From positions 271,203-335,202 of the forward strand of contig JALHPO010000003.1 in the NCBI GenBank assembly GCA_022842445.1: a stretch of DNA of 64,000 nucleotides, written 5' to 3'. The translations under genes were made by a program, and so were the position numbers. This document shows positions 13,549 through 30,252 of the stretch, piece by piece. A model generated the notes under the pieces. That model did no database searches, had not been told where the DNA came from, and saw only the letters and a list, made by a program, of their open reading frames with translations. Position 1 is the first letter of the stretch, and every line of letters starts with the position of its first letter. This stretch comes from Nitrospira sp. (lineage in GTDB: Bacteria; Nitrospirota; Nitrospiria; Nitrospirales; Nitrospiraceae).

Positions 13549-13627
<79 letters not shown>

Positions 13628-13643
13628 ACGATATGCTATAATA

Positions 13644-13655
13644 TCAACAACTTAT
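13644..13655. repeat. Left arm site of the island (12-bp inverted repeat partner)
   Basis: TCAACAACTTAT here is the exact reverse complement of ATAAGTTGTTGA at 29631-29642. It begins 17 bases inside attL, and its partner ends 19 bases before attR, so in the excised circle the two would flank the core almost symmetrically, as integrase binding sites do. Confidence 0.6.
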
Positions 13656-13717
13656 GTCTTTATATAGCTGTATAAAAGTATTATAATCCGAAATAATTGC
13701 GTCACGTGCAGCGCACT

Positions 13718-14887
13718 ATGAGTAACGAGATTATCAAACTTCGTGATGGACGACTGCACATTTTTAAACAACCTGGTTGCCAGAATTACTTTTACCGCTT
13801 CTTTGACAACGGAAAGTACATTACCCGAACAGCGCAGACTAGCAATCTTTCTCTTGCCAAATCAACCGCAGAGAAAGCCTATGACTCCTACCGCTTCAAC
13901 AATCTAAAGCCCGATGGCAAATTCAGTCGCTCCTGGGATGACGCAGAGAAAGGTGTCCTGGCTTCTCTTTCTCTTGAGGAGGAAACGCGGGCATCACGAC
14001 TGAAAACTTACAAGATCAAACTCGGCGTGTTGAGAAAGTTTTTTGGGTCAATGCCGTTGCAGCAGATCAACAAGACAAAAACTATCGAAGAGTACGTGAA
14101 GTGGCGACGGACGGAATATCGGACGCATGTCCATCATGAGGTCGTCACCAACAAGACGCTGCGGCGTGACTTTGATGTGCTACGAGCGGTTCTCAAGTAT
14201 GCGCTACGTGAAGGATGGATTGAAAAGTTGTGTCAGTTGCCGATGTTGAGTGTTACTCCAAAGGCAGGTGGGTGGTTTACGCTGGCAGAATGGAAGCATT
14301 TACAAAAAGTTGCCCGCGAATGGATCGAGCGATCACCAAACGACAAAGAACGCGGGCTCCGAGAATATATTTACGACTACATGATGTTTCTTGTCCACAC
14401 GGGGTTGCGTGTCGATGAAGCCTTTCACGTTCACTATCGAGACATTTCACCCGATGAGAAAGATCCACGGTTCTGCTACATCACGGTTCACGGCGGCAAA
14501 CTCGCATATACCATGAAACCGACTGAGTGTATTGGACTGGTGGGGGCTGTCAGTGCCATCGAGCGACGAAAGAAGGCAAACCCAGAACACAAGCCGAACG
14601 ATTTGCTGTTCCCCTACAATCCGCGAGTGAAATTACATGAATTGCTGGTTGCTGCTGGTCTGGAAAGAGACGAACGAGGAGAGCGACGAACCGCAAAGAA
14701 CTTCCGTCACACCTTCATCATGCTCAGATTGCTCCAAGGGGTCGATGTGTACAAATTGGCAAAGAACTGTCGAACCAGCGTCTCTCAAATCGAGCGCCAC
14801 TATGGTTCCTATATCAGTGCTCGCATGAGTCGAGATGAATTGACTAAGTTCAGCACCCCACCACGCGAGAAAGGAACAACAAGATGA
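13718..14887 (+). CDS. int: Tyrosine-type site-specific integrase
   Basis: The phage-integrase family protein has about 389 residues. The N-terminal half has the arm-binding and core-binding type domains. The C-terminal catalytic domain shows the first arginine in HTGLRVDEAFH, the second catalytic block in AKNFRHTFIMLRL, and the nucleophile tyrosine in IERHYGSY. It should integrate and excise the island at the adjacent attL. I chose the ATG at 13718; the track start is a TTG seven codons earlier. Its stop overlaps the next gene's ATG (ATGA), so the two recombinases are translationally coupled. Confidence 0.92.
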   Translation: MSNEIIKLRDGRLHIFKQPGCQNYFYRFFDNGKYITRTAQTSNLSLAKSTAEKAYDSYRFNNLKPDGKFSRSWDDAEKGVLASLSLEEETRASRLKTYKIKLGVLRKFFGSMPLQQINKTKTIEEYVKWRRTEYRTHVHHEVVTNKTLRRDFDVLRAVLKYALREGWIEKLCQLPMLSVTPKAGGWFTLAEWKHLQKVAREWIERSPNDKERGLREYIYDYMMFLVHTGLRVDEAFHVHYRDISPDEKDPRFCYITVHGGKLAYTMKPTECIGLVGAVSAIERRKKANPEHKPNDLLFPYNPRVKLHELLVAAGLERDERGERRTAKNFRHTFIMLRLLQGVDVYKLAKNCRTSVSQIERHYGSYISARMSRDELTKFSTPPREKGTTR

Positions 14888-15474
14888 CAAAGCGAGTTGC
14901 AATCTACGGGCGAGTCTCAACGTCGGGGCAATCAACGGATATCCAAATTCAGGAATGCCGTCAGTATGCAGGACGCTGCGGCTATGAAGTTGTCGCAGAA
15001 TACACCGACACGATCTCAGGCACCACGAGTAAAGATGACCGCGAGGCACTGACTCGGTTATTGAACGATGCGTTTGCCAGGAAATTTGATACCGTGGTCG
15101 TTTTCTCGATAGATCGCGTAGGGCGCAGCCTGAAACATTGCTTAGACATTTTAGAATCACTCAAAGCACATCGCTGCGATTTCATTTCTATCAAGCAACA
15201 GATCGACACCAGTTCTCCCACAGGGCAATTGATCTTCAACATTTTCGCGTGTCTGGCGAACTACGAACGGACCATGATTCTTGAACGAACAGCATTGGGA
15301 CGTGAGAGAGCGAAGGCACGGGGCGTAAAATTCGGGCGACCCTCGAAGATGAACTCCTCAGTCGCGGAAGCTGTGCGTTTACTCCGAGAGAAGGGGGCTG
15401 GGATCAAGGAGATTGCCAAATCCTTAGAAATCGGTGTTGGCTCCGTCTATAAAGCCCTCAAGAGTGCTGCCTGA
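14884..15474 (+). CDS. Serine recombinase (resolvase/invertase family)
   Basis: A small serine recombinase of 196 residues. The N-terminal catalytic domain has IYGRVSTSGQ with the nucleophile serine, then FSIDRVGRSL and the conserved ERTALGRERAKARG before the E helix. A C-terminal helix-turn-helix (GIKEIAKSLEIGVGSVYKAL) binds DNA. It may resolve multimers, invert a segment or assist excision; no inverted gix-like sites were recognised. It overlaps the integrase stop by four bases. Confidence 0.92.
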   Translation: MTKRVAIYGRVSTSGQSTDIQIQECRQYAGRCGYEVVAEYTDTISGTTSKDDREALTRLLNDAFARKFDTVVVFSIDRVGRSLKHCLDILESLKAHRCDFISIKQQIDTSSPTGQLIFNIFACLANYERTMILERTALGRERAKARGVKFGRPSKMNSSVAEAVRLLREKGAGIKEIAKSLEIGVGSVYKALKSAA

Positions 15475-24271: not shown

Positions 24272-25168
24272 CTAATCTTCTGCAAAATAATCGGAGTCGA
24301 TCCGTTTTACTTGGAAAGTTGCTGTTGTGGTCGTCCCCAATCCGTGATCGATCATCAATTCAGCGAGCATACGTCCATCGATCAGAATAACCTTGGGGTC
24401 GATTGTCTCAACATAATTCTTGGCGTCCTCCGAAAACTTGCCCGTGGTGATGAACACACCTTTCTTGGCTCGCTTGCCATGGAGGGCTCCGACAAACTTT
24501 TGAACTTCAGGTCTACCGACTGTGCCTTCCCAACGCTTCGCTTGCAGGTAAACCAAATCCAGTCCAAGGCGATCTTCCTTGATAATACCGTCGATTCCTT
24601 CATCTCCTGTGCCACCAATAGATTTTCCTGCATCAGCGCGTGACCCTCCATACCCCATGGCGACCATCAGATCAACGACTAATCGTTCAAAAAACTGAGG
24701 CGAATTGCTCGCAATGCGTTGCACGACCTGACTGGCGAGATCACCTCGAATGCTCTCATAGGATTTCTGAAGCGTTTCCTCTGGCGTCTCCTTGGAGGGT
24801 TCTTGTTCTTCTTCCTTGGGGGATTTTGCTTTATGGAACTCAAGAAACTCTGGATATTGATTGAGGATTCTTATGTCGATTCGCTTGTGACCTGCCTTGT
24901 GTAGGTCCATACCCCGTTGAGTAATGCGAAACATACTACGCCGTGGTGACTCCAAGACTTTCGCCTGGATGAAATAACTCTTCGCCCACGCCACTCGATT
25001 TTCAAATTTCGTCTGAATTCCGCTTGGAAGAGGCTCTTTCAAGTCCGCTTCGGGCAACGCCATAACCTTGGCGATCACCTCTCTCGCTTCCTGGATGGAA
25101 TGCTCTTTCCCGTCTGCGGCAAGATCAAGCAGCGGCTTGAAGAAACTCTGAAAGTCCGGAACTGCCAT
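24272..25168 (-). CDS. mrr: Mrr-like type IV restriction endonuclease
   Basis: The N-terminal Mrr_N winged-helix region (about residues 1-90, with NRVAWAKSYFIQAKVLE and RRSMFRITQRGMDLH) is followed by a linker. The Mrr catalytic domain comes next: GTGDEGIDGIIKED then DLVYLQAKRW supply the D-QxK nuclease motif, and KKGVFITTGKFSEDAKNYVE completes it. Mrr proteins cut methylated DNA in the cytoplasm. The ATG at 25168 has GGAAAGGAA upstream; the track start is 15 codons earlier. It is followed at once by the unknown 420-aa gene. Confidence 0.88.
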   Translation of the reverse strand: MAVPDFQSFFKPLLDLAADGKEHSIQEAREVIAKVMALPEADLKEPLPSGIQTKFENRVAWAKSYFIQAKVLESPRRSMFRITQRGMDLHKAGHKRIDIRILNQYPEFLEFHKAKSPKEEEQEPSKETPEETLQKSYESIRGDLASQVVQRIASNSPQFFERLVVDLMVAMGYGGSRADAGKSIGGTGDEGIDGIIKEDRLGLDLVYLQAKRWEGTVGRPEVQKFVGALHGKRAKKGVFITTGKFSEDAKNYVETIDPKVILIDGRMLAELMIDHGLGTTTTATFQVKRIDSDYFAED

Positions 25169-25459
25169 CGGGTGATTCCTTTCCCAAGAGCGAGAAGAAA
25201 TGTTGCACCACACGACCTTCCTGTAGGAACTGCGGGAGTGTGCCCCCGCTTGTGGAAAAGGTCAAATTAAACTTGGACCAGATTCGCGGCATCTATTATT
25301 GGGTACATGGGCTGGTCGTTATGGATGATTACGAAGCGTCTGTGTGGATATTGCGAGCGAGGTGAGGGCGTCATTGACAACAAGGAACCCTTCGACAATG
25401 ACTCTCACTTTCCCGAGGCAATTGACGTGAGTAGCCAGCTTGGTATTGTATTGGGTTTG

Positions 25460-26347: not shown

Positions 26348-27196
26348 ATGGGATCTGCTTTTAATGCTCTGCACAAATTTGTATTCCAGGCAAAGAATGG
26401 TGCGTATTCCGTTATCACTTCAAAAGATGAAGCCAAGAAGGGACAAATCACACTGACTGGATATGAGACTAAACTTGTAGAAGATTATTTTGGGAAGGAG
26501 AAGATTCATAAAGGATCTGCCAAATCCGACCCCGCCAAGTCCACAAAAGCATTTTTTATTTATAACAAGAAATCTGAAGGTCAACTTAAGCTAACTTATC
26601 CGAAGCCAAACAAAGAGGAACTACGCTTATACATGAACGCTCATCAGGGGTTTCGCCCTGAGGCGGGTGACATATGGTTTGTATACAAACCTGAGGACCA
26701 ACATAAGCCACTTGTAGTTGGTTCAATGAAACCTGGTGAATGGGAATCACTCGGGTCAAAAGATGAGGGCGATGAGGAGTATCAAGGCATCATAAATTCA
26801 CCGCCCGCAGCGGCTCCCCCTAAAACTAAAACCACCACTGGGTATGAGAGGAAGAGAGAGATAGCTTTAGGTAAAATGAAACAAGCATCTTATAGGTGCC
26901 AAGCAGACGATACTCACATAACTTTTATATCCCCCGTTACAGGAAATAACTTTGTAGAGCCACATCACCTTATTCCGATGAAAGCACAATCCGATTTCAC
27001 CAATAGTCTCGATGTAAAAGAAAACATTGTTGTGCTGTGCCCAAATTGCCACAGAAAGATTCATTTAGCTGGGCACAGTGAAAAGGAAGAAATGCTGAAT
27101 TACTTTTACCAAGATTTGTCCGCTGGTCTACAAAAGCAGGGACTAGAGATAACATTTGACGGGCTGAAGACCTATTACAACCTCCTCAAGACATAA
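26348..27196 (+). CDS. HNH endonuclease, probable restriction enzyme
   Basis: The 282-residue protein has a C-terminal HNH/McrA-type nuclease: VEPHHLIPMKAQSDF, ENIVVLCPNCHRKIH. The second half provides the asparagine, the CxxC-type zinc partner and the last histidine. The N-terminal 150 residues are lysine-rich and contain GDIWFVYKPEDQHKPLVVGS; they probably recognise DNA but were not matched to a family. A strong AGGAAGGGAGG precedes the ATG. vsr starts three bases after its stop, and a cytosine methyltransferase faces the pair, so it is probably the cognate type II nuclease. Confidence 0.75.
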   Translation: MGSAFNALHKFVFQAKNGAYSVITSKDEAKKGQITLTGYETKLVEDYFGKEKIHKGSAKSDPAKSTKAFFIYNKKSEGQLKLTYPKPNKEELRLYMNAHQGFRPEAGDIWFVYKPEDQHKPLVVGSMKPGEWESLGSKDEGDEEYQGIINSPPAAAPPKTKTTTGYERKREIALGKMKQASYRCQADDTHITFISPVTGNNFVEPHHLIPMKAQSDFTNSLDVKENIVVLCPNCHRKIHLAGHSEKEEMLNYFYQDLSAGLQKQGLEITFDGLKTYYNLLKT

Positions 27197-27199
27197 GAA

Positions 27200-27622
27200 A
27201 TGGACATTGTAGATAAGGACAAGCGAAGTCTAATTATGTCGCGTATCAGAGGAACTGATACCGCTCCAGAGAAGACGGTCCGATCAATTTTGCACCGCTT
27301 GGGGTTCAGGTATAGGCTCCATGTGAAAGACCTTCCCGGCAAGCCAGATATAGTAATGCGTAAATACACGACCGCAATATTCGTTCACGGCTGCTTCTGG
27401 CATCAGCATAAGGATTGTATAGATGGGGCGTTACCCAAGAGCAATACAGCATTTTGGAAAGGTAAGTTGAATGGTAACGTGGAAAGGGATCTGAAGAATC
27501 TGGCGCTTCTTCGCAATGGAGGATGGAAAGTTTGTGTTGTATGGGAATGTGAGTTGAAAGACAGGGGGAGGTTGACTCAAAAACTTAAAGATCTATTTAG
27601 GGCTAAGCTTTCGACCAGCTAG
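27200..27622 (+). CDS. vsr: Very short patch repair endonuclease Vsr
   Basis: Vsr nicks DNA 5' of T:G mismatches that arise when 5-methylcytosine deaminates. The 140-residue protein has the full family pattern: SLIMSRIRGTDTAPEKTVRS, LPGKPDIVMRKY with the catalytic aspartate, and FVHGCFWHQHKDC with metal and catalytic histidines. It follows the HNH gene by three bases. Its last 30 bases overlap the 3' end of the convergent methyltransferase gene, which keeps the modification, repair and nuclease functions in one block. Confidence 0.95.
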   Translation: MDIVDKDKRSLIMSRIRGTDTAPEKTVRSILHRLGFRYRLHVKDLPGKPDIVMRKYTTAIFVHGCFWHQHKDCIDGALPKSNTAFWKGKLNGNVERDLKNLALLRNGGWKVCVVWECELKDRGRLTQKLKDLFRAKLSTS

Positions 27623-28891
27623 GCTTTTCCCAAAACGAGCCGCAAGCAGCTTCGCTATCTTGGTTACTACCGGAACGACAACGGAATTGCCAAACTGCTT
27701 GTAAGCGGGAGTGTCCGTGTCTGGCAATCTAAACTCCTCCGGGAATCCTAGTAATCGCGCACATTCTCTTGGTGTCAACTTACGCGGGTTTTTACCCTTC
27801 TGTGGAATCAGACATTCTTTTCCATCCTTCCCATAGCGGGCGACCAAAGTATTGGAGGGCTTGTCAAGGATTGCCGTGTGAGCGGTAAAGCCTGTACCCC
27901 TCGCCAAGTTTCTCTCGGTTCGCCTTTGATGCCCGAGCCACAGGCGGCGCGATATTGTATAGGAACGCGGTGGCTCCGGTTCCAGAATCGACCTTAATGG
28001 CAACGGATTACCCTTGAATTCAGGAATGTCGAATTCCTTTTCCCCATGCAAAGCGACCATAAAGCACCGTGCCCTATTTTGAGGAACAACCGTCTTTGCA
28101 TTAATAATCTTGTATGAAAAGGAATAGCCGAGGTCTCTGACCGTCTGCTCAATTACGGAGAAGGTTTTCCCCTTATCATGGAGGACCAGATTTTTTACAT
28201 TTTCCAATATCATGACCGCGGGTTTCTTGACTGCCGCGACCCTCACAATATTGAAGAATAGAGTGCCTTGTGTTTCGCAAGCAAATCCGTGCTTAAGACC
28301 AATAGAGTTTCTGGCTGAAACTCCAGCACGACTAAACGGCTGACAAGGAAAGCCAGCGCAAAGAATGTCGTGATTGGGAATAAAGTCACGGACTTGATCG
28401 TCAGCTAGGTGTTCGCCACTAAAAATATTAATGTCACCAAAAGGGAACTCTCCAAAGTTTCGATAATAGGTTTCCTTGGCGGATTTATCCCATTCGCTTG
28501 AGAAAACGCATTGTCCTCCGACAGATTGGAGGGCTAAGCGGAACCCTCCTATTCCGGCAAATAAGTCTATAAATCGGAAAGAGCCGACACTGGTGGGAGG
28601 AAAGGGAATGCGTTCGTAGAGTATAAAGAGTTCATGTCGCCCATCGACAAGCTTAGTTGATTCTCTGCGTCTGCCCAATGCGGGATAGGACTGCTCAAAT
28701 AGTCTTGCCACCCATTTGTCTCGAAGTTCTTTGTCACCGAATAACGGTATGGTTAATGGATGCTGGAGCCAACTACTGATAGATGCATTCCTTTCGGAAT
28801 GATGCGCGAGCGGATGACCTAGTTCTCTTGTCAAAATCTTCAATGCCGTAACAGCCTCGTCGAAATGAATCTGTCTGATAGTTGACTTCAC
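27593..28891 (-). CDS. dcm: DNA (cytosine-5) methyltransferase
   Basis: The 432-residue type II modification methyltransferase has motif I FIDLFAGIGGFRLAL, motif IV GFPCQPFS with the catalytic cysteine, motif VI ENVKN, motif VIII QNRARCF and motif X KQFGNSVVVPVV. About 105 extra residues precede motif I and were not recognised. The target sequence cannot be read from the protein. The start is GTG at 28891. It converges on vsr with a 30-base overlap. It protects host DNA from the adjacent nuclease, by inference. Confidence 0.94.
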   Translation of the reverse strand: MKSTIRQIHFDEAVTALKILTRELGHPLAHHSERNASISSWLQHPLTIPLFGDKELRDKWVARLFEQSYPALGRRRESTKLVDGRHELFILYERIPFPPTSVGSFRFIDLFAGIGGFRLALQSVGGQCVFSSEWDKSAKETYYRNFGEFPFGDINIFSGEHLADDQVRDFIPNHDILCAGFPCQPFSRAGVSARNSIGLKHGFACETQGTLFFNIVRVAAVKKPAVMILENVKNLVLHDKGKTFSVIEQTVRDLGYSFSYKIINAKTVVPQNRARCFMVALHGEKEFDIPEFKGNPLPLRSILEPEPPRSYTISRRLWLGHQRRTERNLARGTGFTAHTAILDKPSNTLVARYGKDGKECLIPQKGKNPRKLTPRECARLLGFPEEFRLPDTDTPAYKQFGNSVVVPVVTKIAKLLAARFGKSLAGRKLSPK

Positions 28892-29327: not shown

Positions 29328-29660
29328 GACGTACCTCCCAAAGATTTTGCGATGCTAACACTACCCCCCCCACCATGCAATCTGCCTTGCCCCACCAGAA
29401 TAGTGCCTTGTTCGCGGCACCAAGCTGTCTCAATCAACGACTGAAAGTTTGACAGAGAGAAATGAAGGAAAGTTCTCTTCGTGTAGAGGGAGATGAAAGA
29501 CGAGCCAGAGAAACCCAAGGGAGAGCAGTCTTATGTAGTTTGGGGAGAAAATGAGGGGAAAAAAGAACGGATACTTACATAACCGAGTTACATAAAATAT
29601 TTGGTCGTACTGAATACATGATTATTATCAATAAGTTGTTGAGTATTTTCAAATATTTTG
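29328..29660. other. AT-rich right end of the island
   Basis: No gene seen. The stretch becomes very AT-rich toward attR and contains two TTACATAA copies (about 29574 and 29590) and the right arm site. It probably forms part of the attachment complex bound by the integrase and possible accessory factors. Confidence 0.5.
29631..29642. repeat. Right arm site of the island (12-bp inverted repeat partner)
   Basis: ATAAGTTGTTGA is the exact reverse complement of 13644-13655. It ends 19 bases before attR. Confidence 0.6.
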
Positions 29661-29678
29661 ACTGAGCTACGGGCGCAC
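29661..29678. repeat. attR: 18-bp direct repeat, truncated tRNA-Arg 5' end
   Basis: Exact copy of 13610-13627. It corresponds to tRNA nucleotides 1-16 plus two upstream bases; no further tRNA sequence follows toward the island, so this copy is not a functional tRNA. Confidence 0.88.
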
Positions 29679-29687
29679 GTGTGCTAC

Positions 29688-29716
29688 ATGAATCATGTTA
29701 TGCGAAGGCTTGTCAA
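29688..29716 (-). promoter_or_regulatory. Possible original tRNA-Arg promoter, stranded outside attR
   Basis: On the minus strand a perfect TTGACA (29716-29711) lies 34 bases before the position equivalent to the tRNA 5' end, where a -35 box for the tRNA would be expected. A good -10 hexamer is not evident (ATTCAT at 17-bp spacing). It now points at the truncated tRNA copy and into the island. Confidence 0.4.
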
Positions 29717-29751: not shown

Positions 29752-30252
29752 TTACAGCCGGGCAAGAATTTCGTCTGCAATCTGCACGATCGGCCGCCCA
29801 TCGGTTGCAATGACATGATCAGCCGCAGCCTCATACTTCGGGGTTCGCTCACGCAAAACATCCTGCACTTCGTCGATGAACGACTTGGTGCCCGTCAGTG
29901 AAGGGCGTTGCGTATCTCGTCCGATGCGTTTCATGATTGTTTCCACCGAGGCCGTCAGCCAGAAAATGGTGCCTGCAGTTTTCAGCCTGTCGACATTTTC
30001 CGGTCGAAGGATTGCACCTCCCCCTGTATCGATAACCAGTCCATCCTCATGTGCCATATCCCGGCAAACCTGAGATTCAAGATCACGAAAATAGTCCCAC
30101 CCATGCTGCGCGACAATCTCAGGTATGCTCTGACCGGCTCGTTTCACAACCTCCGCATCAGTCGATACCATGGTTCGGCCAAGGCGCGAGGCCACCATCT
30201 TCCCTACGGTGCTCTTCCCGGTCCCACGGTACCCGATGAGCACGACGTTCAT
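29752..30252 (-). CDS. aroK: Shikimate kinase
   Basis: Shikimate kinase phosphorylates shikimate at the 3-hydroxyl with ATP. The 166-residue P-loop protein has GYRGTGKSTVGKMVA, the shikimate-binding STDAE and FRDLESQV, then DTGGGAIL and the lid arginine in RPSLTG. Length is normal. Its ATG overlaps the aroE stop (ATGA). It is the last gene before the island's attR. Confidence 0.95.
   Translation of the reverse strand: MNVVLIGYRGTGKSTVGKMVASRLGRTMVSTDAEVVKRAGQSIPEIVAQHGWDYFRDLESQVCRDMAHEDGLVIDTGGGAILRPENVDRLKTAGTIFWLTASVETIMKRIGRDTQRPSLTGTKSFIDEVQDVLRERTPKYEAAADHVIATDGRPIVQIADEILARL

Follow-up and report, generated by a model that had tools for sequence, protein, structure and literature searches.

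Insertion of a tyrosine-recombinase island at the 5' end of tRNA-Arg(TCG) in Nitrospira and the probable takeover of tRNA transcription by island DNA

A tyrosine-recombinase island inserted at the 5' end of the gene for tRNA-Arg(TCG) has been identified in Nitrospira sp. (GenBank assembly GCA_022842445.1, contig JALHPO010000003.1). The insertion has left the -35 element of the native tRNA promoter at the far end of the island, and the intact tRNA gene is probably transcribed from a promoter within the 92 bp of island DNA that now precede it. Taken jointly, the 5' insertion, the stranded promoter and a tRNA driven from the island end form a reading in which we have high confidence. The window, which is the whole stretch of DNA analysed, comprises 64,000 nucleotides. 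The features that define the insertion are the following.

13549-13625, minus strand: intact tRNA-Arg(TCG), identified by ARAGORN, with its 5' end toward the island
13610-13627, minus strand: attL identity block GTGCGCCCGTAGCTCAGT, consisting of tRNA nucleotides 1-16 and 2 nt upstream
13718-14887, plus strand: tyrosine recombinase (integrase) of 389 aa, Phage_int_SAM_5, with a conserved C-terminus of the R..HT.IM..Y type
29661-29678, minus strand: attR identity block, including the 16-nt 5' stub of the tRNA (29661-29676)
29752-30252, minus strand: aroK (shikimate kinase), the ancestral upstream neighbour of the tRNA and on its strand
13644-13655, plus strand: TCAACAACTTAT, one of two inverted copies that flank the att cores
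29631-29642, minus strand: TCAACAACTTAT, the other half of the inverted arm-like pair

An exact 18-bp repeat, ACTGAGCTACGGGCGCAC, at 13610-13627 and 29661-29678 bounds the island of ~16 kb, and the GC content drops to ~0.47 between the two copies (~0.44-0.54 along 13.6-29.7 kb) from ~0.56. Three characteristics of a tyrosine-recombinase tRNA island are found here, namely an integrase beside the intact tRNA, a partial-tRNA repeat at the far end and an empty site in relatives. Between the tRNA and the start of the divergently oriented integrase gene lie 92 bp. The empty site is exemplified by locus L005 of genome G020, in which the pal-side flank, an intact tRNA, the TTGACA element and aroK are contiguous. 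Since the 5' end of the tRNA faces the island, the DNA upstream of the intact gene is now island DNA. The initial annotation had proposed that the insertion took place at the 5' end of the tRNA and cost it the original upstream DNA, and the repeat, the stub and the empty-site relatives bear this out. TCAACAACTTAT matches the window twice against 0.15 expected, and the inverted pair is probably an integrase arm site. It is extremely improbable that the two repeats reflect an old rearrangement or an assembly join in place of a site-specific insertion. The contigs of G022 and G101 break at or in tRNA-Arg(TCG), which indicates that the repeat can confuse assembly; the adjoining integrase, the fall in GC and the inverted arm-like motifs nevertheless speak for insertion, as does the equivalent structure found at three different tRNA genes that is described below.

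The promoter abandoned at attR lies outside the identity block.

29688-29716, minus strand: stranded native tRNA promoter, with TTGACA at 29711-29716, 17 nt and ATTCAT at 29688-29693

Its TTGACA is situated at -40 relative to the first base of the stub (29676). The hexamer alone is unremarkable, with 23 occurrences in the window against 32 expected by chance. Its conservation has been counted in the same-genus loci that have an intact tRNA immediately downstream of aroK and in the same orientation (n=52), and TTGACA is present 39-42 nt upstream of the tRNA in every one of them (at -39 in 17, at -40 in 26 and at -42 in 9). It had earlier been noticed that this hexamer occupies the expected -35 position outside attR and is aimed at the truncated copy of the tRNA; the conservation in 52/52 relatives confirms that observation. 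Most of these loci also have a TG 15 nt past TTGACA, followed by a TTCATG-like sequence, and the TG of the TGATTCATG-like extended -10 of the attR promoter has the same fixed spacing. The native promoter thus looks like a strong -35 element combined with an extended but weak -10 element. The weakness of the -10 (ATTCAT, TTGAAA and similar hexamers, none of them the consensus TATAAT) could be taken to mean that the conserved TTGACA is not a tRNA promoter at all but has another role behind aroK, within a terminator or as a site for an integrase. We regard this as highly unlikely. The gap between aroK and the tRNA ranges from 55 to 104 nt across the 52 intact loci while the spacing of TTGACA to the tRNA is fixed, so the position of the element follows the tRNA and not aroK. 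Furthermore, TTGACA is the textbook -35 sequence, and several other tRNA genes of the genome have TTGACN at similar places. The -35 element of the native promoter has therefore been left behind at attR by the insertion. A promoter-like TTGAAA-N17-GATAAT sequence (10/12) is also found at 29652-29624 on the minus strand, just inside attR, and reads into the island like the stranded promoter.

The new upstream region of the intact tRNA contains the following elements.

13626-13717, minus strand: island end of 92 bp between the tRNA 5' end and the integrase start, presumably holding the promoter that now serves the tRNA
13638-13643, minus strand: candidate -10 element TATTAT, preceded by TGA (13644-13646) and ending 12 nt upstream of the 5' end of the mature tRNA
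13661-13666, minus strand: weak candidate -35 element TATATA (3/6), with a 17-nt spacer
13659-13687, plus strand: promoter-like TTTATA-N17-TATAAT (10/12) reading to the integrase; a regional scan expects 1.2 such sites by chance

Of the suggestion that TATTAT at 13638-13643 on the minus strand supplies the new promoter, the sequence part holds, in that the hexamer is present and has the form of an extended -10 element, but it scores no better than shuffled sequence. Under a simple sigma-70 model with E. coli frequencies, TATTAT together with TATATA scores 8.18, which is higher than 25 of the 39 tRNA upstream regions of the genome, and 30% of dinucleotide shuffles of the AT-rich stretch reach the same value. 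Homologous island ends have TATTAT, TTTATA, TGTATG or TACATT at this position, always after TG and one further base. This TG lies within TCAACAACTTAT, the copy of which at 13644-13655 falls wholly inside the spacer of the candidate promoter, so the conservation of the TG is only suggestive and could reflect integrase binding. Comparison by eye of the island ends of G012 and G017 (and also G085) did not reveal clearly better conservation than in the decayed integrase, and no convincing promoter motif is shared by the island ends at the Arg, Ala and Lys tRNAs. The TATTAT-bearing extended -10 near 13638-13646 is the most likely candidate for the promoter that would now drive the tRNA.

That some promoter serves the tRNA from the island is better argued from the need of the cell for this tRNA. 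Among the 39 tRNA genes of the assembly tRNA-Arg(TCG) is single-copy, and the arginine tRNAs are TCT, ACG, TCG and CCT; a CCG anticodon is absent among the 39 tRNAs found, in an assembly that is ~90% complete and so may lack such a tRNA. In the host ORFs of the window CGG ranks second in frequency among the arginine codons (236 of 11,986 codons, ~20 per 1000). By the wobble rules CGG is not among the codons of the ACG (inosine) tRNA. As the sole CGG reader found, and with CGG a common codon, tRNA-Arg(TCG) must be expressed and is probably essential. The earlier view that the island now provides the promoter thus holds by way of inference, because only 92 bp separate this sole reader from the divergent integrase gene. 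The tRNA might alternatively be processed from a longer transcript initiated on the far side of the integrase gene, with no local promoter. It is common for tRNAs to be processed from longer transcripts, and the ancestral tRNA followed aroK in the same orientation at a distance of 55-104 nt, where read-through from aroK is possible. On the other hand, the integrase and the resolvase that follows it (13718-15474) are on the opposite strand, so a longer transcript would run antisense to them for ~1.8 kb, and we consider this explanation unlikely.

The preferred reading, with a promoter in the island end, can be put together as follows. The island inserted by a crossover within nucleotides 1-16 of tRNA-Arg(TCG). 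A crossover at the 5' end rebuilds the intact tRNA at the integrase end of the island and puts 92 bp of island DNA in front of it. The native promoter with its TTGACA was left 16 kb away and aimed through the 16-nt stub into the island, and the tRNA would be transcribed from a promoter within the island end, divergently from the integrase gene. The displaced host promoter probably reads through the stub toward the right-hand cargo. From the arrangement of these elements both promoters are probably active, and the island may affect the level of the tRNA.

The second recombinase of the island and its cargo genes are the following.

14884-15474, plus strand: serine recombinase of the resolvase/invertase type (Pfam Resolvase 6e-42)
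24272-25213, minus strand: Mrr-type (type IV) restriction enzyme
26348-27196, plus strand: HNH endonuclease
27200-27622, plus strand: Vsr endonuclease
27593-28891, minus strand: C5-cytosine DNA methyltransferase, downstream of the stranded promoter

Further products of the island are a Schlafen/AlbA-type protein and a PIN-like protein. Judged by its predicted products, the element is a small defence island. The last bases of the tyrosine integrase gene are also the first of the serine resolvase-type gene, so that both kinds of recombinase stand side by side. A small ORF and the methyltransferase are encoded on the strand read by the stranded host promoter, and a search for a terminator-like site between this promoter and the methyltransferase gene found none. 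One could extend the mechanism by supposing that the integrase, on binding its arm site in the promoter spacer, shuts off the tRNA before excision, which would link recombination to translation, and that the displaced promoter drives the methyltransferase side; jointly, these two propositions are quite unlikely to hold.

The same tRNA has been targeted in related genomes. G005, G012, G017 and G085 each have either a copy of the integrase or a remnant of one in divergent orientation beside tRNA-Arg(TCG), along with AT-rich DNA upstream of the tRNA, and the pal-side flank is kept in G005, G017 and G085. The integrase is broken in G012 and G017, while tRNA-Arg(TCG) is intact and single-copy in both. 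The abandoned side is found in various states. In G017 the hexamer reads GTGACA and the stub is mutated, G030 and G085 have kept TTGACA next to a mutated stub, and in G012 the promoter element and the stub are all lost. As read from these sequences, the stub side decays in old insertions in some of these genomes. In G012 (L048/L235, G012:C1:1706774-1717698) tRNA-Arg(TCG) has the island remnant on its 5' side and also a copy of its 3' half 11 kb downstream, which suggests that this tRNA has been targeted at either end.

The nearest named relatives of the integrase are encoded in Nitrospira MAGs. Within the genus, intact relatives of 46-57% identity read away from a neighbouring tRNA, which is tRNA-Ala(CGC) in two genomes and tRNA-Lys(TTT) in one, and each of these three cases has a 16-nt 5' stub of its own tRNA at the far end (~6, 7 and 16 kb away). 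The occurrence of 16-nt 5' stubs at the Arg, Ala and Lys tRNAs indicates a small Nitrospira subfamily of integrases that targets nucleotides 1-16 of several tRNAs. A tRNA-Lys(TTT) has also been observed between two different integrase genes, one on its 5' side and one on its 3' side (L033/L090, G087:C144).

The distant relatives of the integrase are more varied in their location. Twenty of the 80 loci lie behind the 3' side of a tRNA, and in 16 of the 80 a tRNA-Leu or tRNA-Ser is situated downstream of the integrase. In several alphaproteobacterial MAGs of this Leu/Ser class, TTGAAA-N17/18-TATAAA is found between the integrase stop codon and tRNA-Ser. Here, more clearly than at the Nitrospira island, an element appears to bring along the promoter of a tRNA.

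Four loci of alphaproteobacterial MAGs (L250, L253, L257 and L263) have elements of ~1.47 kb, with seemingly one gene only. In order, they consist of a 5' tRNA-Ser stub of ~39 nt, one integrase ORF (412 and 420 aa in the two that were checked), the TTGAAA-N17/18-TATAAA motif and the intact tRNA-Ser, and the own promoter of the stub would read into the integrase. The source genome itself has a tRNA-Arg(TCT) with a 39-nt 5' stub 24.5 kb off (L038, G000:C1:174200-175800, and L039, 198700-200300), where an integrase-like frame reads toward the tRNA and ends 19 nt before it. This layout implies that tRNA-Arg(TCT) has likewise been cut off from the DNA that originally preceded it.

Islands inserted in tRNA genes are mostly regarded as harmless, since the tRNA retains its own promoter. 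In this case a tRNA that the cell can probably not spare would depend on island DNA, and the integrase subfamily repeats the pattern at the Arg, Ala and Lys tRNAs within one genus. The insertion would amount to a natural promoter swap, and island-bearing strains should differ from island-free ones in how a single tRNA is transcribed, so that an effect of the island on translation is directly testable. The presence of a tRNA stub with TTGACA outside attR could serve as a rule for spotting islands of this kind, and nucleotides 1-16 extend the usual list of target regions.

In bacteria, tRNAs are reported to keep the original promoter at tRNA insertions with very few exceptions (PMC8371274). Three bacterial target regions are recognised, namely the anticodon loop, the T loop and the 3' end (Williams 2002, as described in PMC8371274). 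Archaeal integrases of the pTN3 type insert in the 5' half of the tRNA, which is then expressed from the integrase promoter, an arrangement seldom seen in bacteria (PMC8371274); they belong to the Thermococcales and target the 5' half of tRNA-Leu (PMC5495485; PMC8371274). In the literature searched for bacterial 5'-end tRNA insertions only archaeal papers were found, and none was found on such islands in Nitrospira. The principle of promoter loss through 5' insertion is thus already known and is reported as rare in bacteria. The target region of nucleotides 1-16, the divergent layout and a subfamily using three tRNAs appear to be new, as compared with the bacterial classification in the description given by the review.

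The Nitrospira island resembles pTN3 in having a 5' target in the tRNA and in parting the rebuilt tRNA from its original promoter. The pTN3 system is archaeal and suicidal, its integrase gene being split, and has a 41-bp att that reaches the anticodon; the Nitrospira integrase, unlike it, is whole (the 389-aa frame is intact) and divergent from the tRNA, with an identity block that ends at nucleotide 16. The island shares with the usual bacterial tRNA-targeting tyrosine recombinases the integrase beside the intact tRNA and, at the opposite end, a direct repeat that copies part of the tRNA. It differs from the three bacterial regions listed in the review in that the block corresponds to nucleotides 1-16 of the tRNA (Arg, Ala and Lys) and the tRNA promoter is lost. 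The islands at tRNA-Arg(TCT) in the genus and the alphaproteobacterial integrases at tRNA-Leu and tRNA-Ser are similar in having the intact tRNA at the integrase end with island DNA upstream, whereas in those systems the integrase reads toward the tRNA and the stub, where seen, reaches the anticodon loop (~39 nt).
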